Source: a virus
Virus record (IMG/VR): IMGVR_UViG_3300030616_000039
Coordinates: 1 to 46,251 of that record
DNA length: 46,251 nucleotides
Reading direction: 5' to 3' (one strand)
Part shown: positions 1 through 46,251 of the stretch, in pieces
Position numbering within the stretch: position 1 is the first letter of the stretch
Layout: each line of letters starts with the position of its first letter
Notes under the pieces: model-generated
What the model saw: the letters and a program-made list of their open reading frames with translations, nothing else
Told to the model about the DNA's origin: nothing
Database searches by the model: none
Made by a program: the position numbers and the translations under genes

Positions 1-3000
1 CATATTCTTGTACATTCTAGTCTGTGCTATTTTAAATGTAGGCACAAACATAAACCGGTTCATAGCCCTACGCATATGGTCTGGTACGCGTGAGTAATCA
101 GCCATAAACATATTGGTACGCTCAGTGGCAAGCCAAAGAGATTCATCCAGGGCAGCAGCTTCTGGGTTTTGCACCCTGCGCTCCTTGGCTCTCTTAAGCT
201 GGATAGGATAAAACCTTTTACGGAACCTCTCAGCCACAGATATCCTCATTATCTCATCTATTGACCAGGTAATATTCTGGTATTGATGAAAAGACTGCAT
301 CATTTTCCTTAGGACTTTACGAACTTTCCCCCGGGCCACAGTATTATCTCCAGCAAACAAGCTCCTGGCTATGGTGCCAGCCATACCATCACCTACCATC
401 CTGGAATAATCCCTCACTGCATCAGTAACCAGGCCATTAAATCCCAGGGTATGATGGAATAGGTTTCTCTCTCTATAGCTCTGATATGCCTTTTTCTCCA
501 CACTAGAACCAACATCGTTTCTAGAGTGCCATATCCTCCAGGCATTAGGTATTTCCAGGATAAATCCCGGGCCGGTAGCAAGGAGCCCTTGAGCAAGATC
601 ATTAGCACCAACAATAGTGGGCTTCCAAAAGGAGAGAGTTTTCATTGTCCGGTTAAGGCCATCATAAACTTCCTGCCCTTTCTTAAGCGCAGCTAGGGAA
701 CCGGCTTTATCCTCATAGTCATACCTAAATACGAACTGCTGGAGCCCTTTATGTAGAGCCCTATGCAGATACAGGCCCTCATAGCCTGGTAAATTAGGGG
801 ATGTAATACGATTAGGCTTCCAGCGCAGAGGTTTTCCGTAGATATATGCTCTACCGGCACTAAACTTATCGCTATGGCTATCCCTATTATGGACCTTAGC
901 ATTGACTGGCATATAGACTTCGCCAAGGGCAGCATCAAAAAGGGAGTCATTTATAAGACCACGGTCTTTTTGTTCCTGGGCATCAAGCTTAGTCTCCAGG
1001 TCCTTAATAGTAGCTGCATCAAGCCCTTCTGTTCCTTTAAAAGTATTGAGGAAATCTCTCTTTTTCTGGGTAAAAATACGCCCGGTAGTGAAATCGTGTA
1101 TATCCTGGGAGATAGTCATAAACCGCTGCAACTGAGCAAACTCAGTATCAAGCTTTTTCTTGGCTGCATCGGTAATATCTTCCTTCTGAAGCACCTCTAT
1201 ATCTTCCATCCTGGTCTGCCAGATGGTGCGGTCCTTTGTATTATCAACATATACTACGCCATTATGCTCACCCCAGCCTGCAATAGTGTCATTCTTAATT
1301 TTGTCTATCTCAGTTAAAATACCTCTTAACCTTTTGATCTGCTCCTCAGTGCTGTACCCCTTAACATTTTGTTTGACCTCATCATAATTAGCGTGGAGTT
1401 GTTTAAGCTGTGAGAGCACAACCTCAGTATGGTCTATAAAACCAGTCTTCCAGCCCCGGCCAAGCTCATAATTAATCTGCCTGGTAAACATATAATTGAG
1501 AGCACCACGCAAATTAGCCCGAGCATCATTAATAGTCTTAAAACCCATAGTAGACAAATCATCCAAAGTCCTATGTTTTCTACCGTGCACATCATAAAGC
1601 GTGGGGTCCATAGCCCCTTTACCTACATCGAGCCTACCTTCCTCCACCATTTTATTAAGCCTGCTACCGTAAAACTCATTATTGTCAGGGTCTGCAAGTA
1701 CAGCGTGGTGCCTGTATAGGAAGTTGTCCTGGTCATTAGTTAGAATAGACCTGGTTGTAGCTACTATACGATTAAACCTATCAGAGAAATCATCGTTAAT
1801 AAGGCCAGCTTCCTCGTACTCATCTCTTACGGCATTAGCCATTTGGGCTACTTTCTTAGCTGCCTGGATAGAATCCTCTTTTGTGAATAGTTCCTCAAAG
1901 AAATCAGCCTGGGCCTGTTCCTTGGGTATGCCTGCCAGTTCACCATAGCGCTGGAAGAAGCCAGCATACCTCTTATATGACTCTTGATTTATAGAATCCA
2001 CCAAGGCATTTTTCCTGTAAGCACCAGGTGGCATCTCAAGCTTCCTGCCTATCTCATCAATAATATCCCAGCCTAAAGTCTGAGACCTGGACAGCACATC
2101 ATACACATCTTCAAAGGGCATTTTAAGCTTCTGAACAGCAATTTTAGTATATAGGAGCTTGTCTTTTGACAGGCTACGCATATTAGCAATTAGCCCATCA
2201 GTAAGCTCATCGGGATCATTAATGACTTTTTGGATTAAATGCTCTATTTTATCACCATTAGTGATAGGCTCATTAGCCTGGTCTCTGGCAGACGGTATGT
2301 CACCACTTCCTCTTAAGGCGTTTCCGGGCCTTATATCTCCCTGTTCAGACAGGGGCTTTAATTCTGTCTCTGACAGCCTATCCTGTAGCTTATTAAAAAC
2401 CTCAAGCCGATTCTTAATAAGAGGGTCCTTTACTCTAGAGCCCTTAATAAATGGAAGTCCATATTTTTTGTAAAACTTTCCGTAAATATTATCCTCTATC
2501 TCACGCACTTTATCCTTAGATGCAGTCTCTTTTTTGCCCATAGTATGGACAATCTGGCGAGAGGTGGGTTCTATTTTGAGTATATCTTCAAATATACTGA
2601 ACTTACCCTTAATGACATCATCAATAGGGCTAGTGATTGACCTTATTTTTTCCTTTAATTTTTGCCCTAAGCCATCAAAAGAGACCCCTCTCTCCTCTAA
2701 TCTCTGAACTTCAAGGGCTGCAGCCCGGGCTCTTTCCAAGACGAACTCATCACCAGCATCCATAAACTTAAGGATTCCGGTCTCATCATCATTATAATCC
2801 CTGTTATTCCGGAGTTCCTGGTCTGGAGTAATTTCAGAATCACTGGACTTTATCTGATTTTTGATGACAGCCTGCTCTCTGGGCTTCCTACCCAGTATTC
2901 TATCAGTCTGGGCCTGCTCTTCGGCCAGCCGTATGGCTGGCTTGACATTATCAAGCACAATAGAGTTATCAATAATAGCCTGGACCTGCTCCTTTTTATT

Positions 3001-6000
3001 ACCAGGAACAACAAGACTGGGGTCTTCTGCAATATCACGTACTCTGCGCTCAGCGAACTCCACATCTCCTGCTTTAGTTGCTGCATTTACAGCCACTCTC
3101 ACAGTAGGATTGTCCATATTCAGTAGAATATCCTCAGTACGAGCGAATTGCTTAGGAGATACCTCCTGCAATAAACGGTTAAAGACCAGGTGTTTACGAG
3201 ATATTGTGTCTATTTCGTTCAAATCTTTAGTAAATGAGAGAGTAGCGTTTGGTATTTTGTTGATAGGATTACCCATCAACTTAACAGCAAAAGCCTTAGC
3301 TATATTCTCAGGAGTCTGAGGGTACCTGTTTGTGAGCCTATTATAAATATCTATTGCAGCACCTTTGAAATCGGCAGGGTCTATGTTATAGCCAGTAATA
3401 ACGAAGTCAGTGCCATTATTAGACTCAGGATGCCTGAGTATTATCTTGGGGTTGCCCTCCTGGCCAACATAAGACTGATTAAGCTTGGCCACCTCATTCT
3501 TAATGAACTCTCCAGCTGCAGCTTTAAGGCGCTCTATGTTAGATGGTATGTAAATCCTGGACATTGAGTCAGTATAGTCCTTTATACCAATAACCATAAG
3601 GCCATTCCTGCTGGCATAAGAGCGCACCAGGGGGCTCTCCAGGCTGGCTTTTATACCAGTTCTGGGATTGACAGTACCAACTATCTCCTGAGCTCTTCTG
3701 TGAAGTATCTCAGCATCCCTGAGATTGTACGATACACGCCTGGAGGTACGAACTGTTGTCTTAAATGGCTCATTTAGCCTGGTTAAGGCAGACTTCCAGT
3801 GATGGCCACTAGGTAGCATCTTACCATAGGTCTGGTCTATATTTTTAGGTGTGCGACTAATACCGTAATTACTCAGATGCTCCCTTATCTCGTCATGTTT
3901 CATACCAAGAGCATCATCCCAGTACCGGATGAGAGTATTCACAATATTGGCAGGGTCTCGCCTAGCTATCTCAGCCATTACAGCAAAGTCCTTATTATTC
4001 AAACTGGACAGGTCAATACCACCGGTATCCTTAGCATCCTTGCCAGCTGACTTAATTCTTTCCTTGGTTGACTTAGCCTGCGCCCAGAACTTAGCCCTAC
4101 TCTTAGCCCTTTCAAAGAACGGTTCATCCTGGGCAGTCACCTGATCAGGTCTTGAGGTCATCTCTCCAGTATTTTTATCAACCCAAACACCCTCGTCATA
4201 CTCCTGGACAGTCTGCTGATCCACGCGAAAATCGGCAGGCGCTTCTTTTTTGAGGTACCGGAACTCTCCCTTAAGAGCTCTCCGGTCTCTGAGACTATTA
4301 AAAGCATTATTTTTAATGATATTACTGGTAATTTCCTTTAAATGGATAGGATTATTAAAGTCAAAATCCGGATGAGTCTGTTTCCATACATCAATATCGT
4401 GTGCTATTCTCTTATCAGAGTAGCCCTTTTCAGACAATAGTCTTAAGAATACATTCTGAGACATGTCCTGGGCAGTAGAGCCATACCGGCCCTCAGGGAA
4501 CTTAGACCGTAAAAAGCTTATAGTCTTTGCTAATTGGTCTCGGACAAAAAGATCATCCTGGAAGAGCCCCCGGATTCGACCAATCGTTTCGGCCTGGGTT
4601 GCGGTTGGCTTAAATGGAGGAACCGCAGGTTTTTTTGCGCGATAAAGCTTCTGGCTGTTCGGAAGAAAAAACTCTATTATTTTATCAGCTGGTCTGTTTA
4701 AAATCTTCCGGAAAGCAGCAGCCTCAGCTTTCTTGCTAGTTCCTTTAGCGTGAGTGTTCATCGCTCTATACAGCTGCTCTATGAAGTCTCCATCTGAGAT
4801 ACCTCTTACTGTAGATTGTAGTTCGCTGGGTGTATTAGCTAGCTGCTCTTTGGCTTCCAGATACTCAAGCCTGGCATCTGCCCTCTCTGGTCCTTCTGGC
4901 GCGCCTTCAAGCGCCCTCTCAAGGTCAGCCACTTTTTTAATAAGTTGCTCTCTTTTTACATTTACAAACTTATTCACTAGCTCAGGGGCTGTTTGTTTCT
5001 GGAGTTTGAGGTCCTTCATAGCCTGGAGTAGGTGTCCTGGTGACAACATAGAATCACTATTAATAAGGTGTTCTGCCTGCTCAGGAGTCATACGCATTAT
5101 TTTAGCCACTTCCAGGGCCATTTGCCTGCGATTTATGTTTAATTCTTTAGGCCCTAATTCCAGGGCATCGACATCAATATAATTCTCATACTTAGCCCTG
5201 TCAATAATAGAGGCCATCTCTTTATGCTTAGCGGTGAAAATCTTAGCTGCATCAATTACTATATCCTCTTGTGCCCGGGCACTTCTCCTGGACCCAAAGA
5301 GTTCTTTGCTGACTCCCTTGGCTACATCCCCGGTAAAGGGCTGATTGAGCTTAGATACGGCACCCTGTGCCCAAATAGCCACCTCTATCTGTTTATCATC
5401 AGAAAGGCTGCGATAGTCAGGTGAGATTTTCCTCATCTTATTCCTTATACGAATAAGTGGATGAGAGGGTGTAGCAGACCTAATAACGGTATTTAACATT
5501 TGAGAGCGTTCACCAATAGCGTGAGAGACTATCCAGTCATAGACAAATTGCTTATTATCCCACTCCCCACCGGATATTACATTAGCTCCTTGCTGAGCAG
5601 TAGACCACATAGCATCAGCTACAAACCTAATACCCCAGCTACTGGGTGCATTAATAACATTTATACCAACACCCTTAAGAAAACCAAAAAACGCACTTCT
5701 AATAGGATTAGCAGCATTTAGCTTCTCCCAGGCAGAGCGCTCAAGCTTATCCTCTCTAATAAATTGACTGGCCATACCCCTGGTTGTATCAGCAAATCCA
5801 AATATAAGGCCAGATGTTACTGCACCAGCACTCTGTCTTAAAGCAGCCCTGCCTAAAGCAGTACCGGCACCAAATCTACCGGCAACTCCAGCCCTGGTAA
5901 GGCCAATTCCACGGTTTAGGGCGCTGAGCCCATTAACAATAGACTTAGACCTACGCATCGTGGCAGGTAAATAGCCTGTAATTCTAGCCCAGCGCTCTGC

Positions 6001-6741
6001 TGTCTTAAACTTCTTAAGAGCAGCAGCCACTTTAGTAGTCGCACCGATCCCCTGAGCAGCATAGGTAAGCGCCATAAGAGACATAATACCACCTAAAGTC
6101 TGGCCTGCCAGGTTAGATTTTCCGTAATATTGCTTATATCTGCCCTGGTAAATGGGGCTATCTGTGTTAATTACATCAAGAGTAGCTGCCTGGATAGTGG
6201 ATTTAAGGAAAACATCGAGTGCAGGATTGTCATGCCCTATGCGCTTAGGAGCAGAATGTGATAAGTCAACTCCACCTTGCTCAAGTTCGGCCTGGAGAAA
6301 TACTGGGTTTAGGGTTTCTATCCTAGCCCGGTTTCTCTCCTTCCAGAAGTCCTGGAAATCACGCCAGGCCCAAAAATCTTTATCTGTTTTAGTGACAGCC
6401 TTGGGATCAAAACCCATATCCAGCATAATAGAGTCAGGAACTACATCACCAACCCCACTACTGGCAGTACCAGCTGCCCTTACAGGCACAGCTCTATCCG
6501 CTGATTCGGCTAAATCGTCATAATCGTCATAATCTACAGGGGTAACATCCCCCCATCCCTTTTCCTTCTTGAGATTTATCCAATCTTTAAAGGCTAATTT
6601 AACTGACCGCTTTGCTTCGTCTTTGAATAACTGTCTGCGTTGCTCTAAAACTTCCTGGTCTAACTCAAATGCCCCTTCTTGCGCGAACTCTTGGACTGGT
6701 AAGCTTGTTGCGAACTGTCCAAATGTTAATTGTTGTGCCAT
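1..6741 (-). CDS. Giant internal virion (ejection) protein, gp16-like, N-terminal 2,247 residues; continues at 46251
   Basis: Starts at ATG 6741 and stays open to position 1 with no stop. Position 3-1 is a full codon, and the frame continues without a break at 46251-45547, giving about 2,481 residues if the molecule is circular. It is the third of three consecutive large genes after two smaller internal-protein candidates, the place of T7 gp16, so a role in DNA ejection or the internal core is inferred. One hydrophobic stretch lies near residues 205-230. The rest is long, helical and charged, and the last third resembles the large polyvalent-protein-associated (LPD38-like) regions of very large phage proteins. 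I saw no convincing polymerase, protease or peptidoglycan hydrolase motif. It starts 10 nt after the stop of the upstream gene. Identity of the core domain is tentative; the coding call is certain. Confidence 0.85.
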   Translation of the reverse strand, partial: MAQQLTFGQFATSLPVQEFAQEGAFELDQEVLEQRRQLFKDEAKRSVKLAFKDWINLKKEKGWGDVTPVDYDDYDDLAESADRAVPVRAAGTASSGVGDVVPDSIMLDMGFDPKAVTKTDKDFWAWRDFQDFWKERNRARIETLNPVFLQAELEQGGVDLSHSAPKRIGHDNPALDVFLKSTIQAATLDVINTDSPIYQGRYKQYYGKSNLAGQTLGGIMSLMALTYAAQGIGATTKVAAALKKFKTAERWARITGYLPATMRRSKSIVNGLSALNRGIGLTRAGVAGRFGAGTALGRAALRQSAGAVTSGLIFGFADTTRGMASQFIREDKLERSAWEKLNAANPIRSAFFGFLKGVGINVINAPSSWGIRFVADAMWSTAQQGANVISGGEWDNKQFVYDWIVSHAIGERSQMLNTVIRSATPSHPLIRIRNKMRKISPDYRSLSDDKQIEVAIWAQGAVSKLNQPFTGDVAKGVSKELFGSRRSARAQEDIVIDAAKIFTAKHKEMASIIDRAKYENYIDVDALELGPKELNINRRQMALEVAKIMRMTPEQAEHLINSDSMLSPGHLLQAMKDLKLQKQTAPELVNKFVNVKREQLIKKVADLERALEGAPEGPERADARLEYLEAKEQLANTPSELQSTVRGISDGDFIEQLYRAMNTHAKGTSKKAEAAAFRKILNRPADKIIEFFLPNSQKLYRAKKPAVPPFKPTATQAETIGRIRGLFQDDLFVRDQLAKTISFLRSKFPEGRYGSTAQDMSQNVFLRLLSEKGYSDKRIAHDIDVWKQTHPDFDFNNPIHLKEITSNIIKNNAFNSLRDRRALKGEFRYLKKEAPADFRVDQQTVQEYDEGVWVDKNTGEMTSRPDQVTAQDEPFFERAKSRAKFWAQAKSTKERIKSAGKDAKDTGGIDLSSLNNKDFAVMAEIARRDPANIVNTLIRYWDDALGMKHDEIREHLSNYGISRTPKNIDQTYGKMLPSGHHWKSALTRLNEPFKTTVRTSRRVSYNLRDAEILHRRAQEIVGTVNPRTGIKASLESPLVRSYASRNGLMVIGIKDYTDSMSRIYIPSNIERLKAAAGEFIKNEVAKLNQSYVGQEGNPKIILRHPESNNGTDFVITGYNIDPADFKGAAIDIYNRLTNRYPQTPENIAKAFAVKLMGNPINKIPNATLSFTKDLNEIDTISRKHLVFNRLLQEVSPKQFARTEDILLNMDNPTVRVAVNAATKAGDVEFAERRVRDIAEDPSLVVPGNKKEQVQAIIDNSIVLDNVKPAIRLAEEQAQTDRILGRKPREQAVIKNQIKSSDSEITPDQELRNNRDYNDDETGILKFMDAGDEFVLERARAAALEVQRLEERGVSFDGLGQKLKEKIRSITSPIDDVIKGKFSIFEDILKIEPTSRQIVHTMGKKETASKDKVREIEDNIYGKFYKKYGLPFIKGSRVKDPLIKNRLEVFNKLQDRLSETELKPLSEQGDIRPGNALRGSGDIPSARDQANEPITNGDKIEHLIQKVINDPDELTDGLIANMRSLSKDKLLYTKIAVQKLKMPFEDVYDVLSRSQTLGWDIIDEIGRKLEMPPGAYRKNALVDSINQESYKRYAGFFQRYGELAGIPKEQAQADFFEELFTKEDSIQAAKKVAQMANAVRDEYEEAGLINDDFSDRFNRIVATTRSILTNDQDNFLYRHHAVLADPDNNEFYGSRLNKMVEEGRLDVGKGAMDPTLYDVHGRKHRTLDDLSTMGFKTINDARANLRGALNYMFTRQINYELGRGWKTGFIDHTEVVLSQLKQLHANYDEVKQNVKGYSTEEQIKRLRGILTEIDKIKNDTIAGWGEHNGVVYVDNTKDRTIWQTRMEDIEVLQKEDITDAAKKKLDTEFAQLQRFMTISQDIHDFTTGRIFTQKKRDFLNTFKGTEGLDAATIKDLETKLDAQEQKDRGLINDSLFDAALGEVYMPVNAKVHNRDSHSDKFSAGRAYIYGKPLRWKPNRITSPNLPGYEGLYLHRALHKGLQQFVFRYDYEDKAGSLAALKKGQEVYDGLNRTMKTLSFWKPTIVGANDLAQGLLATGPGFILEIPNAWRIWHSRNDVGSSVEKKAYQSYRERNLFHHTLGFNGLVTDAVRDYSRMVGDGMAGTIARSLFAGDNTVARGKVRKVLRKMMQSFHQYQNITWSIDEIMRISVAERFRKRFYPIQLKRAKERRVQNPEAAALDESLWLATERTNMFMADYSRVPDHMRRAMNRFMFVPTFKIAQTRMYKNM

Positions 6742-34525: not shown

Positions 34526-34721
34526 AGAGATGGAGAAAATGGTGGGTGCCTTGCGTGACAGGCATATTAAGTACCCGGTGTATAAGTGTGTGGACTGTGG
34601 GATAGAGCTCATAGTCGCACCTAACCAGGAGTATAGGGTAAAGGATGGCCATATCCGGTGCAATAATCCACGCTGCCCCACATTCCAGAAGGGCCGTGGC
34701 GCCAGGTACGTTAAGAAATGA
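34503..34721 (+). CDS. Zinc-ribbon-like protein (72 aa)
   Basis: ATG 34503 follows AAGGGGGTTGGTG and lies 23 nt inside the previous gene; a longer reading would run antisense to no effect. The sequence has VYKCVDCGIELIVAP then RCNNPRCPTFQKG: two Cys pairs about 28 residues apart, a zinc ribbon. It ends basic (RGARYVKK). Probable nucleic-acid binding miniprotein; overlaps the next gene by 4 nt. Confidence 0.65.
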   Translation: MPNPRQAREMEKMVGALRDRHIKYPVYKCVDCGIELIVAPNQEYRVKDGHIRCNNPRCPTFQKGRGARYVKK

Positions 34722-35290
34722 GACCCATTAAATCCCTGTTCGGCAGTGGTAAGGGTAAGGACTGCGTGCTTGTGGGCCGGGGTATCTCAGCTCATACTGT
34801 GAGCTGGCCTATAATGGCTGATGTATTTGTGGTAAACTCCTGGCCCGGCCAGGCCCCACCGCTGGTGGACTACTATATCTTCAGCGACCTGGTGCTGTAC
34901 CAGATGCAGATTGACAAGGGCAATGTATTCCCAGAGGGTGCCCAGGTTATAGGGCCCACGCCTGTAATAGAGTGGGCTAACACCAAGAGGATGAGCCCGG
35001 CCCAGGACATAGACTATTTCTATGACCCTCACCTATATCCACTAGAGATTGACAAGAAAAAAGTTGCTATCCGATCCGGGATGAGGGCCCTCAAGCTTGC
35101 TGTTGATATGGGGTATGATTATATCTACCTGGTTGGCTTTGACTACAAGCCGATGGAGAATTATGATAGCCCGGATATGGTGAAGAGACTGGATACCCAG
35201 CTTAAGGAGTACAAGCTTTTAGACTGGCCAGCCAATAGGATAATCCAGACTAATCCTGAGAGTAGACTAAAGTTTAAGGAGAAGAAATGA
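34718..35290 (+). CDS. Rossmann-like protein, DUF115/GT42-like pattern (190 aa)
   Basis: A 190-residue protein with an N-terminal Gly-rich loop (LFGSGKGKDCVLVGRGIS), a strand-turn (MADVFVVNSWPG), DYYIFSDLVLYQMQIDKG and, in the second half, IRSGMRALKLAVDMGYDYIY then LVGFDY. The order 'VLVG.G.S ... VN. ... D ... SG..AL..A...GY..IYL.GFD' recalls DUF115 and the GT42 sialyltransferase-like fold, where the last motif is in the sugar-nucleotide site. In a phage this could modify host or phage components. Similarity is by pattern; enzyme activity is not shown. Confidence 0.55.
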   Translation: MRPIKSLFGSGKGKDCVLVGRGISAHTVSWPIMADVFVVNSWPGQAPPLVDYYIFSDLVLYQMQIDKGNVFPEGAQVIGPTPVIEWANTKRMSPAQDIDYFYDPHLYPLEIDKKKVAIRSGMRALKLAVDMGYDYIYLVGFDYKPMENYDSPDMVKRLDTQLKEYKLLDWPANRIIQTNPESRLKFKEKK

Positions 35291-38606: not shown

Positions 38607-39074
38607 ATGAATACACAAACAAAGGCCACTGAACTGGCCACAAAATTGGTTGAAGCTGAGAGGCGCAAGCTTGCACTGACTGAGCTCAACAAAGAGATTA
38701 ACAGGCTGAGGTCTGAGCTCAATGAGGCTATGGATGATGAAGACATACCCTCTATCACAGTCAAGGTAGCCGGTGGTGAGCTCAAGTTTGACCCGATAGA
38801 AGAGGAAGAGTTCAAGCTCGCTGGTCCTGTGGCTGGCAAGCAGTGGGATAAGTGTGGAGTCTTCCACGCCTGGCTCCAGGAGATAGGCGAAGAGGGTCTC
38901 ATTAAGACTGAGCCTTCAGTCCACGCAGCTACCAGGAAAAAGTTTCTACTTGAATGGATAGAGAATGGTGAGGAGCTTCCTGAGTTCATCGAAAAGACTA
39001 TCTTCTCTACTACCAGGTTCAATAAATCACTGGTCACTCGCCTGGCTAAGGGTGAGTTTGAAGAAGATGAGTGA
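38607..39074 (+). CDS. Hypothetical coiled-coil protein (155 aa)
   Basis: Residues 1-45 are a coiled coil (ERRKLALTELNKEINRLRSE), followed by a beta segment (SITVKVAGGELKFDPIEEEE) and a helical second half (FHAWLQEIGEEGLIKTEPSV; KKFLLEWIENGEELPEF). ATG 38607 after AAGGAGCAAAT. Ends in the ATGAGTGA overlap with the YkgJ-like gene. An ordered phage protein, family unknown to me. Confidence 0.7.
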   Translation: MNTQTKATELATKLVEAERRKLALTELNKEINRLRSELNEAMDDEDIPSITVKVAGGELKFDPIEEEEFKLAGPVAGKQWDKCGVFHAWLQEIGEEGLIKTEPSVHAATRKKFLLEWIENGEELPEFIEKTIFSTTRFNKSLVTRLAKGEFEEDE

Positions 39075-39453
39075 GAAGAAATGTCTGCAGTGCGGTAAGT
39101 GCTGCAGGACCATCAGCTTCTACTTTAATCCGCTGCCCTCCCTGGTCAAATACTATGAGACCAGGGGGTGTGAGGTCAGGCACAATGTGGTACACATACC
39201 CTGTACCTGCCCTTTCTTAGACGAACTCACCAATAAGTGTAAGATACACGACAGAAAGCCAGATGTCTGTGCATACTATGGCACAGTCACTACTAAAAAC
39301 TACTACGTACCGGAGGGGTGTGGGTATGCCGATAAAGAAGAGGGAAGAGAGCCGGGCCGATCTGATGGCACGATTGACCCAGCCGAAAAAGAGAAGCGAA
39401 AAGGAGATATCGGAGAGCGAAGTCAAGGCGAAGATAAGGAAGTGGCTAAGTGA
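39067..39453 (+). CDS. YkgJ-family CxxCxxCC protein (128 aa)
   Basis: N-terminal KKCLQCGKCCRTISFYFNPL is the CxxCxxCC signature of the YkgJ/UPF0153 family, followed by CTCPFLDELTNKCKIHDRKP and VCAYYGT with further Cys, giving the usual eight or so metal ligands. The family is thought to bind zinc or an Fe-S cluster. Start is within the preceding stop (ATGAGTGA), so coupled. From 39326 to its end it is overlapped in another frame by the VRR-NUC gene (128 nt). The disordered, charged C-terminus is the part that overlaps. Confidence 0.75.
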   Translation: MSEKKCLQCGKCCRTISFYFNPLPSLVKYYETRGCEVRHNVVHIPCTCPFLDELTNKCKIHDRKPDVCAYYGTVTTKNYYVPEGCGYADKEEGREPGRSDGTIDPAEKEKRKGDIGERSQGEDKEVAK

Positions 39454-39712
39454 AGCGTTTGGAGAAGAGCTTGCCCACTTCCATTACTCAGCCCGGGGAG
39501 GGGCCCCGGGCGTATCTGATCGCATCTGTTGTTACAAAGGGAAATTCATTGGTATTGAAGCGAAAAGACCGTCTAAGCGAAATCATAAGGACGGAGGACA
39601 AGCAGCCGACCAGCGAAGCTTTGAGAAAACTATTCGCGCTGCAGGTGGCCACTATATCCTAGCGCATAGTTTGGATGATGTTAAAGAATACTTCAACAAA
39701 TATCTGGCTTAA
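39326..39712 (+). CDS. VRR-NUC domain nuclease (128 aa)
   Basis: ATG 39326 follows CGGAGGGGTGTGGGT. After a basic start, residues 45-128 carry the VRR-NUC core: HYSARGGAPGVSDRICCYKG (catalytic Asp in GVSD), KFIGIEAKRPSKRN (the E-x-K of the PD-(D/E)XK fold) and DQRSFEKTIRAAGGHYILAH (the Q helix). VRR-NUC enzymes cut branched or damaged DNA, including Holliday-like structures. It overlaps the YkgJ-like gene by 128 nt in another frame. Probably works with the helicases in fork or junction resolution. Confidence 0.85.
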   Translation: MPIKKREESRADLMARLTQPKKRSEKEISESEVKAKIRKWLSEAFGEELAHFHYSARGGAPGVSDRICCYKGKFIGIEAKRPSKRNHKDGGQAADQRSFEKTIRAAGGHYILAHSLDDVKEYFNKYLA

Positions 39713-39928: not shown

Positions 39929-40735
39929 ATGACAACCAAAAACACACCAGCTAAGAAACCGCAGGCCGAAGTACCTGCATACCTGAACCAGGGGCCAGCC
40001 CTAGGCGTAGACAATATCGGTATGGAAGATATTGTTATACCCAGGCTTAAGATAGTCCAGGGTCAGAGCCGGGCCAAAGCCAACAATAAGAAACTTATTG
40101 ATGGCGCCTGGTATCATAGTGTGACAGAGAATATTATATGTCCACCGGATGAGGCGCTCACTCTTTACTTTCTACTCAAGTGGGGTGGACGTATCATCTT
40201 TGATGATAACCTAAAGTTTGTAGCAAGTGAGTACACTGACTACAACTCTAAGGAGACTATTGCTATTGGTGAGCCTGTCGATGATAAGGACCCAAGGTGG
40301 ATAGACTGCATCAATTACTTCGTTGTTACACAAGCAGACCTCATTGATGGTATTAAGTCTGGCGTAGCTCCAGACCCATTTATCTATAGCGCAATGAGCG
40401 CATCAATGACTCCTGCTAAAAAACTTAACAGTCACTTCAAGGCAGCTGGTAAGCGCAATTTCTCTATGTTTGCACATAGAATTATTGCTACTACCCAGAT
40501 GCAGAAGTTTGACAAAGGCAATGCGTTTATGCCTGTATTCACTCCCAAGGGATATGCCAGTGAGAAAGAGTTTGCAGGGCTTAAGGCTCTGTATAAAATC
40601 TGCTCCAAGCTTGCTTCAACTGAAGCTGCTCAAAAGGAAGACGAGAAGGAAGAACGACAAGCGCCTCAGCGTGGTCAGACAGGACCAGCTGAACCCAAAG
40701 GAGAACCAGATACCTCATTTGATTTCGATGAGTAA
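39929..40735 (+). CDS. Possible second ssDNA-binding protein with acidic tail (268 aa)
   Basis: A 268-residue protein. The front is disordered (KNTPAKKPQAEVPAYLNQGP), then a compact core (EDIVIPRLKIVQGQSRAKAN; ALTLYFLLKWGGRIIFDDNL; KRNFSMFAHRIIATTQMQKF). The C-terminus is charged, ending PDTSFDFDE, an acidic tip with Phe as in T7 gp2.5 and SSB. That tail, next to an MCM-like helicase, suggests a ssDNA-binding or helicase-partner role. The core fold cannot be confirmed here. Expressed after the structured 39.7-39.9 kb leader; ribosome site TTAAGGAACAAAC. Confidence 0.6.
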   Translation: MTTKNTPAKKPQAEVPAYLNQGPALGVDNIGMEDIVIPRLKIVQGQSRAKANNKKLIDGAWYHSVTENIICPPDEALTLYFLLKWGGRIIFDDNLKFVASEYTDYNSKETIAIGEPVDDKDPRWIDCINYFVVTQADLIDGIKSGVAPDPFIYSAMSASMTPAKKLNSHFKAAGKRNFSMFAHRIIATTQMQKFDKGNAFMPVFTPKGYASEKEFAGLKALYKICSKLASTEAAQKEDEKEERQAPQRGQTGPAEPKGEPDTSFDFDE

Positions 40736-40813: not shown

Positions 40814-43027
40814 ATGGGAAATGACTTGGTGAAAAAATCTCTTGAGTATCACGGAGTTCTACTTGAAGACGATACTGCGCGTGAAACTCTGGTGGAATAT
40901 GGGGGTATTTCTCAGAAGGATATAATTGACAACAACATTGGATGGAACAAAGAACAGCAGAAATATACCATACCCATCAGTGATGGTAACGGTGGTCTTG
41001 TTGAGATAATAGAGAGAGATATAGACAGTATTGATGATTGGATAGAGGAGCTTGGTAAGGCGTATAACAAGATACCATTTGAGAAGTCTATTAGCTCAGA
41101 CCACTATGGCAAAGCAATAACGTTTAATGGAATTATAATCGGTAAGGATTTATCTCCTTATCTGATACCCAGGCTAGTTAAAATAAAATGTGGTGAGGCT
41201 GGGGCACAGATGAAACGCTGTGCTAATTGCCGTATCTACCAGGAGTATGACTGCAATCCCCTATCAAGAGAGAGGGGCTTTGAGTACAACTTCCGCTGTC
41301 ACCAGGACAGAGACATCATCCTGAGCTTCATTAATACATCAGATGCACACGTTAAAGGATATATCCGCAGGTATTTTGCCATACCTGATTACAGTAAATG
41401 CAGAAAGGTAACAGTAGATATTGCCACCAAGCAAAACGTAGAGGAGATTATGGTATCAGCTGAGCTTGACTATTCCAAGATGGATGCTGAGTACATGGTG
41501 CAGCGCTCATTCGTATTCTCCACCGATATAAAGACTAATGCCCAGTACCAATTCTATGGTACTACCTGGGGCGATCCCCGGACCCAGCGTTCTACCCATA
41601 TTATTAACAGGACTAAAGCGAGCCTGGACTCAGTGAGTAAATGGAGACTTACTCCTGAGGTAAAAGAAAAGCTAAAGGTTTTTAAACCAAAAGACCCACG
41701 CGATGTGGACTCCATAACAGAGAAGATACAAGGTATTCAGGATGATCTGGCTCACAACGTAACCAGGATAAAGAAGAGAAACAATATCATTATGGCCCTT
41801 GACCTTGTCTACCATTCCGTACTGCAATTCAACTTCCTTGGGCACAGAGTAACGAAGGGATGGATGGAGTGTCTCATAGGAGGGGATACACGTACCGGTA
41901 AAACAGAGACTATCCGCAGCCTGGTTAAACACTACCGCGCAGGCGAGTTCTTGACTTCGGGGGAGAATGTCAGTCTTGCTGGAATACTTGGTGGAGTACA
42001 ACAGACTCACGGTAACTCCAGATGGTCTCTGACCTGGGGGAAAATACCACTCAATGACAGGGGTGCTCTTGTTATAGACGAGAGCGAAAACCTTGTCAAG
42101 GCTGAGATAATGGGTTTTCTCTCAGGTGTCCGGTCTTCCGGTATAGCTGAACTACATAAGATACAGAGCCGTAGGACTCTAGCTAGGACCAGGCTTGTCT
42201 TCATAGCCAATCCTATCCACGGTGATGTGGGTAACTACAACTTCGGGGTTGATATAATAAAAGAGATAATGGGCCAGCAGCAGGATGTGGCCAGGCTTGA
42301 CTTTGCTGTTCTTGCCAGCAAAGAGGATGTGCCTATTAGTGAAATAAACCAAAGAGATACGGAAGAGTATGAGCATTTCTATACCAGTGAACTTTGCCAC
42401 AATCGTGTTATGTTTGCCTGGTCACGTAGGCCAGAGGATATATATATTGAGAAGGATGCTGAGAACGCTATACTGCACGCTGCCACTCTCTTAGGCGAGA
42501 AGTTCAGCTCTGACATACCGCTTGTGGTAGGGGCTGAGATGAGAATAAAGCTAGCCAGGATGGCTATATCAGTGGCAGCTATGGTATATTCTACTGATGA
42601 TGAGGGAGAGAAGGTGATCGTAAACAAGGCGCACGTACTGTTTGCCATCAACTTCTTAGAGAGCCAGTATCATAACAGGCGTATGGGATATTATGACTAC
42701 TCACAGCAAAGACTCACAGCCAGGACCCTGCGTGGTGAGGAGCAACTTGATGAGATGATATACGAGCCTGAGGTTATTAACGAATTACTTGTAACCAGGC
42801 GCATCCAGCTCACTGATATTGAGGATATATTTGCTACAGATGATAGGGGCAGGGCCAGGCAGACCCTGGCCAAACTAAGGAAGTGTGGAGCTCTTAAGAA
42901 AATATCCTATTACTACCACAAGACTCCACCGTTTATCACCTGGCTAAAGAACCGTAGGCACGCGCTGACTAATCTGCACGCAGAACCCAATAGCTTTAAT
43001 TTTGAGAATCCATTTGAGGGGGAGTAA
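40814..43027 (+). CDS. MCM-like AAA+ replicative helicase (737 aa)
   Basis: An MCM-type helicase. Residues 126-162 hold a Cys cluster (C126, CANC at 136-139, C147, C162), where MCM proteins carry their zinc finger. The AAA+ core has Walker A GGDTRTGKTE at 356-365, Walker B GALVIDE at 417-423, a pre-sensor-1 stretch SSGIAELHKIQSRRTLARTR, sensor 1 LVFIANP at 461-467 and a probable arginine finger at R494 (ARLDF). The 'GIAE..KI...R.TLARTR....ANP' order is specific to MCM proteins. C-terminal winged-helix-like end about 640-720. Ribosome site CCGGGAGGGATA. With no polymerase or primase seen, it likely leads a host-polymerase-based replisome. Confidence 0.85.
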   Translation: MGNDLVKKSLEYHGVLLEDDTARETLVEYGGISQKDIIDNNIGWNKEQQKYTIPISDGNGGLVEIIERDIDSIDDWIEELGKAYNKIPFEKSISSDHYGKAITFNGIIIGKDLSPYLIPRLVKIKCGEAGAQMKRCANCRIYQEYDCNPLSRERGFEYNFRCHQDRDIILSFINTSDAHVKGYIRRYFAIPDYSKCRKVTVDIATKQNVEEIMVSAELDYSKMDAEYMVQRSFVFSTDIKTNAQYQFYGTTWGDPRTQRSTHIINRTKASLDSVSKWRLTPEVKEKLKVFKPKDPRDVDSITEKIQGIQDDLAHNVTRIKKRNNIIMALDLVYHSVLQFNFLGHRVTKGWMECLIGGDTRTGKTETIRSLVKHYRAGEFLTSGENVSLAGILGGVQQTHGNSRWSLTWGKIPLNDRGALVIDESENLVKAEIMGFLSGVRSSGIAELHKIQSRRTLARTRLVFIANPIHGDVGNYNFGVDIIKEIMGQQQDVARLDFAVLASKEDVPISEINQRDTEEYEHFYTSELCHNRVMFAWSRRPEDIYIEKDAENAILHAATLLGEKFSSDIPLVVGAEMRIKLARMAISVAAMVYSTDDEGEKVIVNKAHVLFAINFLESQYHNRRMGYYDYSQQRLTARTLRGEEQLDEMIYEPEVINELLVTRRIQLTDIEDIFATDDRGRARQTLAKLRKCGALKKISYYYHKTPPFITWLKNRRHALTNLHAEPNSFNFENPFEGE

Positions 43028-43287
43028 TGGGCTGTCCGTTTTATAGTGATTGTAAAAAATGTTATGCTAAAACCGAGTGTGATATATTCAAAGATTATGA
43101 ACGAATTAGAATAAATATGGGTGACGCAGTAACACGACTCCAAGTCAAAGTAGACAAGTATGAGAAGGCTTTGAAGTTTTATGCGAAAAAAGAAAATTGG
43201 TATATGACTATTTACCCAAACAAACGCAAGATTGATATTGACGGTGGTGAAAAAGCCAGAGAAGCACTAACCAAAGAGGAGGAGTAA
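43027..43287 (+). CDS. Mini-gene array, member 1 (86 aa)
   Basis: MGCPFYSDCKKCYAKTECDI: four Cys near the N-terminus, then a coiled-coil block (RLQVKVDKYEKALKFY) and the shared tail ALTKEEE. The start overlaps the stop of the helicase gene. The block at 43138-43173 recurs at 43668-43703 with one change in 36 nt. Its last codons are the ribosome site of member 2. Unknown function. Confidence 0.7.
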   Translation: MGCPFYSDCKKCYAKTECDIFKDYERIRINMGDAVTRLQVKVDKYEKALKFYAKKENWYMTIYPNKRKIDIDGGEKAREALTKEEE

Positions 43288-43613
43288 TGTCAACTAAATG
43301 CCCATCGTGTAAAAAACTATACACCGAACATCTAGGATTAATCGGTACTTGTTCAAAGTTACAAAAAGTGCAGGCAGAGAATAAACGCCTTAAAGACCAG
43401 ACATGGGATTTAGGTACTGAGAGAGACGAACTGAAAGAAGATAATAAGCGATTAAAAGCAGAAGCTAAACTTGGAAACATTCCTTATAAAGAAGCTATTG
43501 CAATACAAGCCGATAACAAGCGGTTGAGGAAGTTTGCTGAAGATGTATCAAAAGATGATAATACTTGTTGGCAAGACAGAGCCAAAAAAGCACTACACAA
43601 AGAGGAGGAGTAG
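43287..43613 (+). CDS. Mini-gene array, member 2 (108 aa)
   Basis: Starts in the TAATG overlap with member 1. Front CPSCKKLYTEHLGLIGTC (CxxC), then coiled coil with three copies of the NKRL motif (AENKRLKDQ, EDNKRLKAE, ADNKRLRKF), ending ALHKEEE. The 20-nt stretch at 43508-43527 is identical to 43969-43988 in member 4. Ends in TAG, and member 3 begins on the next base. Confidence 0.7.
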   Translation: MSTKCPSCKKLYTEHLGLIGTCSKLQKVQAENKRLKDQTWDLGTERDELKEDNKRLKAEAKLGNIPYKEAIAIQADNKRLRKFAEDVSKDDNTCWQDRAKKALHKEEE

Positions 43614-43865
43614 ATGGAAATGGTATATTACCAAACTTATGCTGATAAAGACGAAGAATGTCAAAAACTCCAAGCCAAAGTAGACAAGTATGAGAAGGCT
43701 TTGGATATAGCGTGTTTAAGTCATGCTGATTTTACTGGAAGCTGTCCACTAGATGCTGATTTAAAAAATGCAGATGATATTTGTGAAAATAACTGTGATG
43801 ATAATAGTGCAAAATGTTATAAACAATATTTTCTTAAACAAGCACTAACCAAAGAGGGGGATTGA
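43614..43865 (+). CDS. Mini-gene array, member 3 (83 aa)
   Basis: A short front, then KLQAKVDKYEKAL shared with member 1, a Cys-rich middle (CPLDADLKNADDICENNCDD) and the tail ALTKEGD. Overlaps member 4 by one base (TGATG). Cys placement suggests metal binding or disulphide; the shared coiled-coil block suggests association with the others. Confidence 0.7.
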   Translation: MEMVYYQTYADKDEECQKLQAKVDKYEKALDIACLSHADFTGSCPLDADLKNADDICENNCDDNSAKCYKQYFLKQALTKEGD

Positions 43866-44110
43866 TGGATTTTAAAATTAATGATGTCATAATACATGAG
43901 TATAGAAATGAGCATGGGGTTACCTATATGGCTGATTTTTATTTAGGAGATAAAGTAAGAAAACTCCTAGCCGATAACAAGCGGTTGATGGAAAGGATAC
44001 AAGACTTCCTTGACTACTTTGACCCAAAGGGCGGTGTAAGTGATGTACCACTTGGGCCATTTGAGAGAGCAAAGGAATTACTACAAGCACTAACCAAAGA
44101 GGAGGAATGA
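43865..44110 (+). CDS. Mini-gene array, member 4 (81 aa)
   Basis: ATG 43865 is taken, after AAAGAGGGGGATTG; a TTG three bases upstream is less likely. Beta-type front (FKINDVIIHEYRNEHGVTYM) and a helix with ADNKRLMERIQDFLDYF, ending QALTKEEE. Shares a 20-nt identical stretch with member 2. Unknown function. Confidence 0.7.
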   Translation: MDFKINDVIIHEYRNEHGVTYMADFYLGDKVRKLLADNKRLMERIQDFLDYFDPKGGVSDVPLGPFERAKELLQALTKEEE

Positions 44111-44421
44111 TGGGATTTTTTGACAGTTTTTATAAGAGTAAACAAGCAAAGGAGTATTATAAAAATGCAAAACTTTTAGAGTTAGGTACTGTTATTGGTG
44201 AAGCAAAAGCGAACTTTGATAAAATGGAAAATGAGATAGATAAACTCCAATACGAAAACAAACGGCTGAGGGAAGCGTTGGAAATAGTAGGTAACGACAT
44301 ACTCAAAAACAATGACGGCAAAACAATAACAGATACTCTATGGCATAGTGATGTTGAAACTATAATAGAGTATATTTGTAATACGCTTGGCAGTGAAGCA
44401 CTAACCAAAGAGGAGGAGTGA
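44110..44421 (+). CDS. Mini-gene array, member 5 (103 aa)
   Basis: ATG ATG at 44107 and 44110; the second gives the TGATG overlap. MGFFDSFYKSKQAKEYYKNA, then a coiled coil with DKLQYENKRLREALEIV (both the LQ and the NKRL blocks) and GSEALTKEEE at the end. Overlaps the next gene by one base. A helical adaptor-like miniprotein of unknown role. Confidence 0.7.
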   Translation: MGFFDSFYKSKQAKEYYKNAKLLELGTVIGEAKANFDKMENEIDKLQYENKRLREALEIVGNDILKNNDGKTITDTLWHSDVETIIEYICNTLGSEALTKEEE

Positions 44422-44696
44422 TGGATAAAATATACAAAAAATTTTTCATATACAACACAGTCACAGGCAACTGCCTAAGTGATAAGTTATATCATAATAC
44501 TGTGCCTAACAGTGAGAAGCTTTATAAAGACCTCAAGAACTTCCAGCAGCTAAAACCTACGGCAACTATGGGTGAAGCCATATTTGATAAGAGTACTCAC
44601 AGGCTCCTGGAACAAGTGCCAGCTGATGTCACAGGAGTTAATTACCCAGAAGATGCAATGGCCCAGGAGGTGTTTAGTGCCAAGCAGTCCGCTTAA
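44421..44696 (+). CDS. Hypothetical protein after the array (91 aa)
   Basis: ATG 44421 lies in the last junction unit, so it is translated by the array's ribosome site. The protein (FFIYNTVTGNCLSDKLYHNT; EKLYKDLKNFQQLKPTATMG; NYPEDAMAQEVFSAKQSA) lacks the ALTKEEE tail and coiled-coil block, so it marks the array's end. It contains the start of the next gene. Unknown function. Confidence 0.7.
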   Translation: MDKIYKKFFIYNTVTGNCLSDKLYHNTVPNSEKLYKDLKNFQQLKPTATMGEAIFDKSTHRLLEQVPADVTGVNYPEDAMAQEVFSAKQSA

Positions 44697-44964
44697 CAGT
44701 ATCCAAACTAACTTAGCTTATCAGAAAAAACTCTATGATAAGTTCAGGAAGAAGTGCCAGGCCCAGAACATAAGCATCAAGACTGCACTACGTGAAGCTA
44801 TCCTCTTATGGTTTCACCACGATATGGGTGATAAGGATTTTACCAGATATATAGCACAAGAGCAAATAAGGAAAGAGCTTGTTGAATCCGTAAGACAAGT
44901 TCTGAAATCCAAGAGCGTTGCTCAGGCTGGGAAACTTCTACGGCAGATTCTTGAGGAGTACTAG
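44677..44964 (+). CDS. Ribbon-helix-helix-like small protein, GTG start (95 aa)
   Basis: GTG 44677 follows CAGGAGGTGTTTA, a good ribosome site; no ATG fits. The front (NLAYQKKLYDKFRKKCQAQN, then ISIKTALREAILLWFHHD) has the spacing of a ribbon-helix-helix DNA-binding fold (strand, then two helices, with ISIKTALREA as the second). The rest is a helix ending LLRQILEEY. Its last 125 bases overlap, antisense, the end of the lytic transglycosylase gene. A transcription regulator is possible. Confidence 0.6.
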   Translation: MPSSPLNSIQTNLAYQKKLYDKFRKKCQAQNISIKTALREAILLWFHHDMGDKDFTRYIAQEQIRKELVESVRQVLKSKSVAQAGKLLRQILEEY

Positions 44965-45546: not shown

Positions 45547-46251
45547 TCAAATCTCATTTTCTAACCTGGACTTACGAAAATCCTCTAGTTCATCATAGAA
45601 TGACCTAAACTTTTCATCCAAGAGCATAGCGTTTACTCGCTGTATGCCACGGTTAAACTCCATTAGTGCATTTCTGCGTTCACCCAAAGTATTGGATTTA
45701 TTAATTGAGTCATAGAACAGTTCCAGTAATTTATTTGGACTGTCTGTTTGATAAAAGTATCCTAGCCCTGAGAGATTTACTACCCGGGCCATTGTCTCTA
45801 AATCATCGCGTGGGAGATTAGAGATATCAGAGCCTATAGGGAAGAAGCTTCTCAGTATATGTAAGCCAAGCTTGCCAGACCTAGTCCTGACATCATCATC
45901 ATAACCCCATATCCTCTGGCCAGTTATCCTGTCCTTATTGGTAGCTATTGAGAACATTAACCCGGGCAGTGCTGCCATATTGTAACGAAGATTGAGCCCA
46001 GTACCCAACCGACCAAAGAACTTCTCCATCTCAAACATCGGTGTAGACAGAGAGAGGGTCCGTATCATAGAACTCATAGGATCGTCCGGGTCCTCAATTC
46101 TCCTGGCTCTGTAACCCTTGATCATATCGAGCTTATCCTGGAAGTTATATCCCATAACTCCATAAACAATACCCTTAATGGCAGCAGAGAAAATGACCTT
46201 ACGAATGAGAGGGGCCATCATAAACATAGCCTGCTCTATTTTCTGGTCAGA
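45547..46251 (-). CDS. Giant internal virion protein, C-terminal 234 residues (continuation of 1-6741)
   Basis: Open from 46251 with no start, reading SDQKIEQAMFMMAPLIRKVI at the edge, and stopping at 45549-45547. It continues the frame that ends at position 1 (FVPTFKIAQTRMYKNM), so it is the C-terminus of the same protein on a circular molecule. Apolar helices (IRKVIFSAAIKGIVYGVMGY) and GTGLNLRYNMAALPGLMFSI fit the end of a large LPD38-like polyvalent protein. A Met at 46227 would be a false start. Confidence 0.85.
   Translation of the reverse strand, partial: SDQKIEQAMFMMAPLIRKVIFSAAIKGIVYGVMGYNFQDKLDMIKGYRARRIEDPDDPMSSMIRTLSLSTPMFEMEKFFGRLGTGLNLRYNMAALPGLMFSIATNKDRITGQRIWGYDDDVRTRSGKLGLHILRSFFPIGSDISNLPRDDLETMARVVNLSGLGYFYQTDSPNKLLELFYDSINKSNTLGERRNALMEFNRGIQRVNAMLLDEKFRSFYDELEDFRKSRLENEI

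Follow-up and report, generated by a model that had tools for sequence, protein, structure and literature searches.

Among the described systems closest to the locus analyzed here is lambda Ea22, a tetrameric early accessory protein that influences the choice between lysis and lysogeny and that consists of a variable N-terminus, a coiled coil, and a C-terminal domain (PMC10834534). At the genome level, an accepted proposal attributes phage mosaicism to homologous recombination where short conserved sequences mark the borders of genes (discussed in PMC3029335), and in domain mosaicism, otherwise unrelated phage proteins have fragments in common, with recent shuffling (PMC10684548). Here, we describe a row of five small genes in the IMG/VR record IMGVR_UViG_3300030616_000039, the whole of which (one record, 46,251 bp) is referred to below as the window. 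The row is probably an expanded, mosaic set of small phage accessory genes that grew by duplication and by exchange at in-frame blocks of 20 to 37 nt. No description of such gene rows was found among open-access papers.

Five small genes with shared DNA blocks

The row comprises five consecutive + strand open reading frames (ORFs) between positions 43027 and 44421, with C-termini that read ALTKEEE or a variant. Neighboring genes overlap by 1 nt, with the exception of genes 2 and 3, which abut (TAG directly followed by ATG). ORF coordinates and translations confirm what an earlier note on this DNA, made from the sequence alone, had described, namely five ORFs in a row with ALTKEEE-type ends and overlapping stop and start codons. 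Each product would start with a head that varies between genes and continue with a probably oligomerizing coiled coil, a loop that also varies, and a short helix (A..AL) at the C-terminus. The genes and the two DNA blocks within their coils are as follows.

Gene 1, 43027 to 43287, + strand: 86 aa; Cys-rich head, coil (KVDKYEKALKFYAKKENW), cap helix GEKAREALTKEEE; end EALTKEEE
Gene 2, 43287 to 43613, + strand: 108 aa; head with CPSC..C, coil in which NKRL is repeated two or three times, tail KKALHKEEE
Gene 3, 43614 to 43865, + strand: 83 aa; coil block A (KVDKYEKAL), tail QALTKEGD
Gene 4, 43865 to 44110, + strand: 81 aa; coil block B (ADNKRL), tail QALTKEEE
Gene 5, 44110 to 44421, + strand: 103 aa; ENKRLREALE within a long predicted helix, tail EALTKEEE
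Block A copy in gene 1, 43137 to 43173, + strand: 37 nt
Block A copy in gene 3, 43667 to 43703, + strand: 36/37 nt identical to the gene 1 copy (97%)
Block B copy in gene 2, 43508 to 43527, + strand: 20 nt
Block B copy in gene 4, 43969 to 43988, + strand: 20/20 nt identical to the gene 2 copy

The five genes share 20- to 37-nt in-frame DNA blocks in varied pairings. The near-identical and identical stretches, given in the earlier note as 36 and 20 nt, measured 37 nt at 97% and 20 nt at 100%, and outside the coil blocks and the tail the sequences of genes 1/3 and of genes 2/4 could not be aligned. With the proteins fixed and the codons redrawn synonymously 300 times, the observed match was attained in 0/300 redraws for genes 1/3 and in 1/300 for genes 2/4. 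Since synonymous redraws almost never reach these matches, the blocks point to recent copying of DNA, beyond protein conservation alone. The sole difference between the block A copies changes an amino acid (GTC to GCC), while all third positions are identical. As for KVDKYEKAL and NKRL, read earlier as blocks used in different combinations, the pairings 1/3 and 2/4 stand, although the two look like versions of one coil, judging by their common AAACTCCAAGCC start.

The gene ends are the second place where DNA is shared, each junction carrying tail codons, the Shine-Dalgarno (SD) site, and the stop/start.

Junction 1-2, 43262 to 43289, + strand: tail codons, SD, and stop/start
Junction 2-3, 43588 to 43616, + strand: the most diverged copy, TAG directly followed by ATG
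Junction 3-4, 43840 to 43867, + strand: tail codons, SD, and stop/start
Junction 4-5, 44085 to 44112, + strand: tail codons, SD, and stop/start
Junction 5-6, 44396 to 44423, + strand: leads into an unrelated gene

Rather than being widespread at unrelated gene ends, the junction 21-mer AAGCACTAACCAAAGAGGAGG occurs in the whole record only at these five (three exact copies, one with one mismatch, and one with two), and an exact search of IMG/VR returned no occurrence. A degenerate version, ALxKEEE plus stop/start, was met elsewhere in one unrelated gene only (L006), which lacks a coil and was discarded. The tail codons do provide the following gene with its ribosome site and stop/start, as the earlier note described, but this is not special to the row. 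In frame, GAGGAGGAG reads EEE; at 21/28 junctions of the early operon the ribosome site falls within the gene before the junction or at its end, and the primase gene before the row ends in ...FEGE (GAGGGGGAGTAATG) for the same reason, so that a tail doubling as ribosome site is general in this operon. The only part of the tail that exceeds the need for an SD is the stretch before it, AAGCACTAACCAAA, which encodes (A/K/Q)-A-L-T-K. The suggestion of a degradation-like tail was not upheld, the A..AL half being the conserved C-terminal helix of the widespread module described below and the EEE half the SD in frame; a degradation tag was rejected for a tail made of a predicted structured helix plus SD codons.

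It is very unlikely that the shared tail (GCACTAACC codons) is a nucleic acid element, such as a translation enhancer or a regulator-binding or recombination site, with the peptide incidental. Such an element would fit the identity of the 14 nt before the SD in 4/5 genes, the restriction of the junction to these sites in the genome, and the use of a CTA codon that is rare in the phage (8% of Leu codons). The junction RNA is also predicted to be unstructured and open, folding no better than shuffles (z of +0.7 and +1.5). However, other phages keep the A..AL protein position with quite different DNA, so the peptide is what is widely conserved; moreover, other operon junctions work without the 14-mer, and no site-specific recombinase was present in the genes scanned.

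A coil and ARxAL module in other phages

The same architecture recurs, by sequence comparison, in many unrelated phages. DNA searches of IMG/VR with ENKRLREAL gave 80 loci and with EALxFYA[DE] a further 40, most hits being short ORFs with a differing N-terminus, the coil, 15 to 40 variable residues, and an ARxAL helix ca. 12 residues or less from the end. In all, the module coil (ENKRLREAL / EALKFYAD) and final helix (ARxAL) were seen in ca. 90 other phage or prophage ORFs, and no model in Pfam, PHROGs, or NCBIfam covers the module itself. The A..AL tail, which was absent from the search patterns that gathered these ORFs, was found in 60/88 outside ORFs retrieved by coil peptides versus 46/823 background small ORFs (12-fold). 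The same build appeared in 9/161 genomes of the family of Oceanobacillus sojae.

A profile of the outside members matched gene 1 with 24.0 bits over residues 48 to 85 (KALKFYAKKENW...DGGEKAREALTKEE), past the anchor motif, while the best of 2000 residue shuffles reached 7.8; the counterpart of this match in L152 reads EALKFYADEKNH...DGGHIARQALQGGE. The coil motif NKRLREAL / EALKFYAD was recognized by profile in genes 1 (KALKFYAKKENW) and 5 (ENKRLREALE) and through block DNA in genes 2 to 4. At the gene ends, AREAL, AKKAL, LKQAL, LLQAL, and GSEAL, A..AL is clear in genes 1 and 2, and AL only is kept in genes 3 to 5. A tblastn search of genes 1 and 5 against cultured phages gave no hit, and the KVDKYEKAL block was not found elsewhere in IMG/VR.

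Could such likeness have arisen without common origin, by convergence of low-complexity coiled coils and SD-encoded EEE ends? Coiled coils do yield many weak chance hits, KEEE is a direct consequence of GAGGAGGAG, and acidic ends encoded by an SD are also seen in further genes of this operon. Nevertheless, we regard convergence as extremely unlikely: the 37-nt and 20-nt identities exceed the synonymous-redraw expectation, the A..AL tail is 12-fold enriched in coil-motif ORFs, and the gene 1 match lies outside pure coil and beats all 2000 shuffles.

Outside the window, the heads fused to the module are mainly Cro/C1-type helix-turn-helix (HTH) domains, a Lar-like domain, and zinc ribbons. The fusion of a Cro/C1-type HTH to the coil and ARxAL module in L152 (2064-2456) and L157 (9617-9991) suggests that some module members are DNA-binding regulators.

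Single chains were folded with AlphaFold2. Gene 1, from an alignment of 76 sequences, gave a predicted local distance difference test (pLDDT) score of 85.5 and helices at 15-53, 68-72, and 75-85, the last of which is the "tail" (pLDDT of ca. 90). Gene 5, from the five window sequences only, gave a long helix (2-67) at modest confidence (pLDDT 68.8). The coiled-coil oligomerization put forward earlier is supported as a prediction. Foldseek returned nothing for gene 5, nothing in the PDB for gene 1, and one weak viral match for gene 1, an uncharacterized Caudovirales protein (prob 1.00, E 0.022). A profile match in the PDB to the YabA coil (E 0.002) was taken as coil similarity. PADLOC, which covers known anti-phage defense proteins, gave no credible model match, those to Cas11b and diadenylate cyclase being rejected as weak and coil-like (E 6e-4 or worse).

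Module genes also form rows elsewhere, and their neighbors carry the A..AL tail more often than expected (26/165 versus 46/823 in the background, p = 5e-5). The earlier note knew of no described system with this layout, but rows of two to four genes sharing junction DNA were present in the unrelated phages L114, L118, L157, and L191. In L114, four consecutive genes end in ARAALGEEKKG, ARAALAEQEKKS, ARAALGEEKK, and SKALGEDG, two junctions share 32 nt at 94%, and 16 nt are common in the coil. The four-gene row of L157 has a 35-nt junction repeat in three copies, and the two genes of L191 share 27 nt of coil at 96% and 21 nt of tail at 95%, the two-block pattern of the window. In L118, the junction and the start of the head are repeated (57 nt at 93%) and followed by different C-terminal halves. 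Three such genes in L135 share no DNA. Within L118, positions 2696-4518 hold the head (MNEPNWSQIDRDRIA) and junction twice, the clearest head-swap signature seen. Directly upstream of the L114 row (300-640), there is a long run of degenerate AGGCAWGGC-like repeats where gene calling is doubtful.

The simplest source of rows of this kind is tandem paralogy. If a single ancestral gene had been duplicated in tandem and its copies had then diverged unshuffled, coil and tail being just what selection kept, this would account for one architecture in all five genes, their common orientation, adjacency, and common tail. We consider it unlikely as the full explanation, in view of the synonymous sites conserved within the blocks (0/300 and 1/300) when the rest of the same genes is unalignable, the crossed block pairings (1 with 3, 2 with 4), and the L118 head copied onto a different C-terminal half.

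Probable growth of the row and its genomic setting

The reading that we favor, duplication plus exchange, is in line with the earlier proposal of block exchange at the DNA level between otherwise unlike genes with junctions that stay translatable, which the shared blocks and the redraw test support. The row would have grown through duplication and also through recombination or gene conversion at the coil blocks and the junctions: a crossover in the coil would swap heads in frame, and one at the junction would add or remove a whole gene and leave translational coupling intact. RecA- or Red-dependent recombination is reported to need at least ca. 30 bp of homology (PMC2327257), a length to which block A and the junction come just close enough and for which the 20-nt block is a marginal case. 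By analogy with Ea22, the proteins may be early, non-essential host-takeover or regulatory adaptors, in which coil and cap would oligomerize and the differing heads (Cys-rich, beta, helical) would choose the target, mixed oligomers being possible.

Content at this spot varies between relatives. The row, which closes the + strand early operon on its 3' side, lies between the primase gene and two small genes and faces a convergent late operon whose first gene encodes an SLT transglycosylase.

Upstream flank, 40814 to 43027, + strand: MCM-type helicase/primase, SD in the last codons too (FEGE)
Downstream flank, 44421 to 44696, + strand: hypothetical 91-aa gene, outside the module
Downstream flank, 44680 to 44964, + strand: small gene with weak similarity (E 0.009) to the gene after the corresponding L011 interval

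Of the two nearest relatives, L010 is 47% identical to the window in both terminase and primase, and L011 is 51% identical in terminase and 44% in primase. When gene content was compared at the same place, as the earlier note had suggested, it differed. In L010, ca. 9 nt separate the primase from the next small gene; in L011, three small genes follow the primase, one of them a module gene (VQAENMQLRDAL...IAKKALEE, VQAENMQLRDALERI...IAKKALEE), and after this interval comes the gene weakly similar to window 44680-44964. By primase alone there were no close relatives; a primase profile gave 80 loci, the nearest at 44-47%, with no row recognized among them by tail score, and no primase relatives were found in bacterial genomes.

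Several points weigh against duplication plus exchange. L010 and L011 are too distant to reveal single exchange events, and duplication and swapping in the window lineage are not seen directly. The 20-nt block is short for homologous recombination, and illegitimate joining or RNA selection could contribute. The score of gene 5 against the outside profile (ca. 24 bits) is confined to the coil motif used to collect the family and hence partly circular, and genes 2 to 4 alone score <4 bits, being linked through shared DNA and architecture.

A bolder version, in which the locus diversifies itself by producing new head-coil-cap chimeras during infection, changing mixed-oligomer effectors, and has arisen repeatedly in unrelated phages, seems to us rather unlikely.

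The window belongs to a tailed phage, with hits to a terminase, a T7-type head-tail adaptor (portal-like), a major head protein, a single-stranded DNA-binding protein, an SNF2-type helicase, and the MCM-type helicase/primase, together with a RusA-like resolvase hit. A giant minus-strand ORF at 1-6741 continues in frame from 45547-46251 (-), making ca. 2,481 aa with its end at 45547; because it reads across both record ends, the record, although called linear, probably represents the complete genome in circularly permuted form. No Pfam hit was obtained for this protein over its 2,247-aa part. The helicase/primase (40814-43027) combines an MCM P-loop match with a match to phrog_18685, and it has relatives in phages of Bacillus, Weizmannia, Paenibacillus, Microbacterium, and Arthrobacter, adjoining queuosine-pathway genes in the Bacillus/Weizmannia phages examined. 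Elsewhere, a 190-aa early protein (34718-35290) has a weak match to an alpha-2,3-sialyltransferase family (phrog_4603, E 2e-4), and an endonuclease-like gene (39326-39712) adjoins homologues of Pam3 gp33 (DUF7307; 38607-39074) and Pam3 gp34 (39929-40735), names that come from a cyanophage.

Comparison with described systems

The five genes form a row that is mosaic at the DNA level and belong to a widespread module without a name in the libraries searched, and the recombination idea of the earlier note gains partial support. Naming the module would unite many "hypothetical proteins" into one testable family, present in many phages and Bacillales prophages beside DNA-binding, Lar-like, and zinc-ribbon heads. 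The rows with shared coil and junction DNA offer a case of small-gene creation in phages that can be checked in sequence, since exchange inside the coil and at the overlapping stop/start leaves every product in frame and translated.

Among ca. 40 proteins scanned, which included all large ORFs and part of the small ones, there was no tyrosine recombinase or integrase and no reverse transcriptase, and a dedicated cassette system has no support from any such enzyme or from a structured site. With regard to an integron-like cassette array, no structured recombination site was seen between cassettes (z of +0.7 and +1.5 for the junction RNA) and no inverted repeat at the junctions. A diversity-generating retroelement does not fit either: no reverse transcriptase was found among the scanned proteins, and the differences between copies involve whole segments instead of the adenines of one repeat.

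The nearest likeness is the unnamed phage and prophage family EN(K/A)RLREALEFYADEKNY...DxGxxARxAL, which has the same architecture and which gene 1 matches over its second half. Its rows elsewhere have two to four genes, whereas that of the window, with five, is the longest found, and the ALTKEEE tail of the window genes is unusually uniform.

Among studied proteins, Ea22 and the small early genes of the exo-xis region of lambda and Stx phages are organized as here, with a coiled coil in the center, a short N-terminal part that varies, and a C-terminal part distinct from both (PMC10834534, PMC8614690). Ea22 homologues exchange parts, and there are Stx phages with full or partial gene duplications in the exo-xis region (PMC10834534, PMC8614690). 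Unlike the window genes, with one short C-terminal helix each and a row of five, Ea22 has 182 aa, a mixed alpha-beta C-terminal domain, and a single gene. No window gene matched an Ead/Ea22-like model in Pfam or PHROGs at E<=1, and since the window genes fail this family test, the likeness is one of functional analogy only: the array proteins may work like Ea22 and would not be called an Ea22. Domain mosaicism, in the abstract of PMC10684548, places its stress on receptor-binding proteins, endolysins, and replication proteins, with rows of tiny paralogues unmentioned there. Compared with mosaicism at boundary sequences (PMC3029335), the border sequence is here found several times in a single genome, between paralogues, and the coil would hold a second point of exchange.

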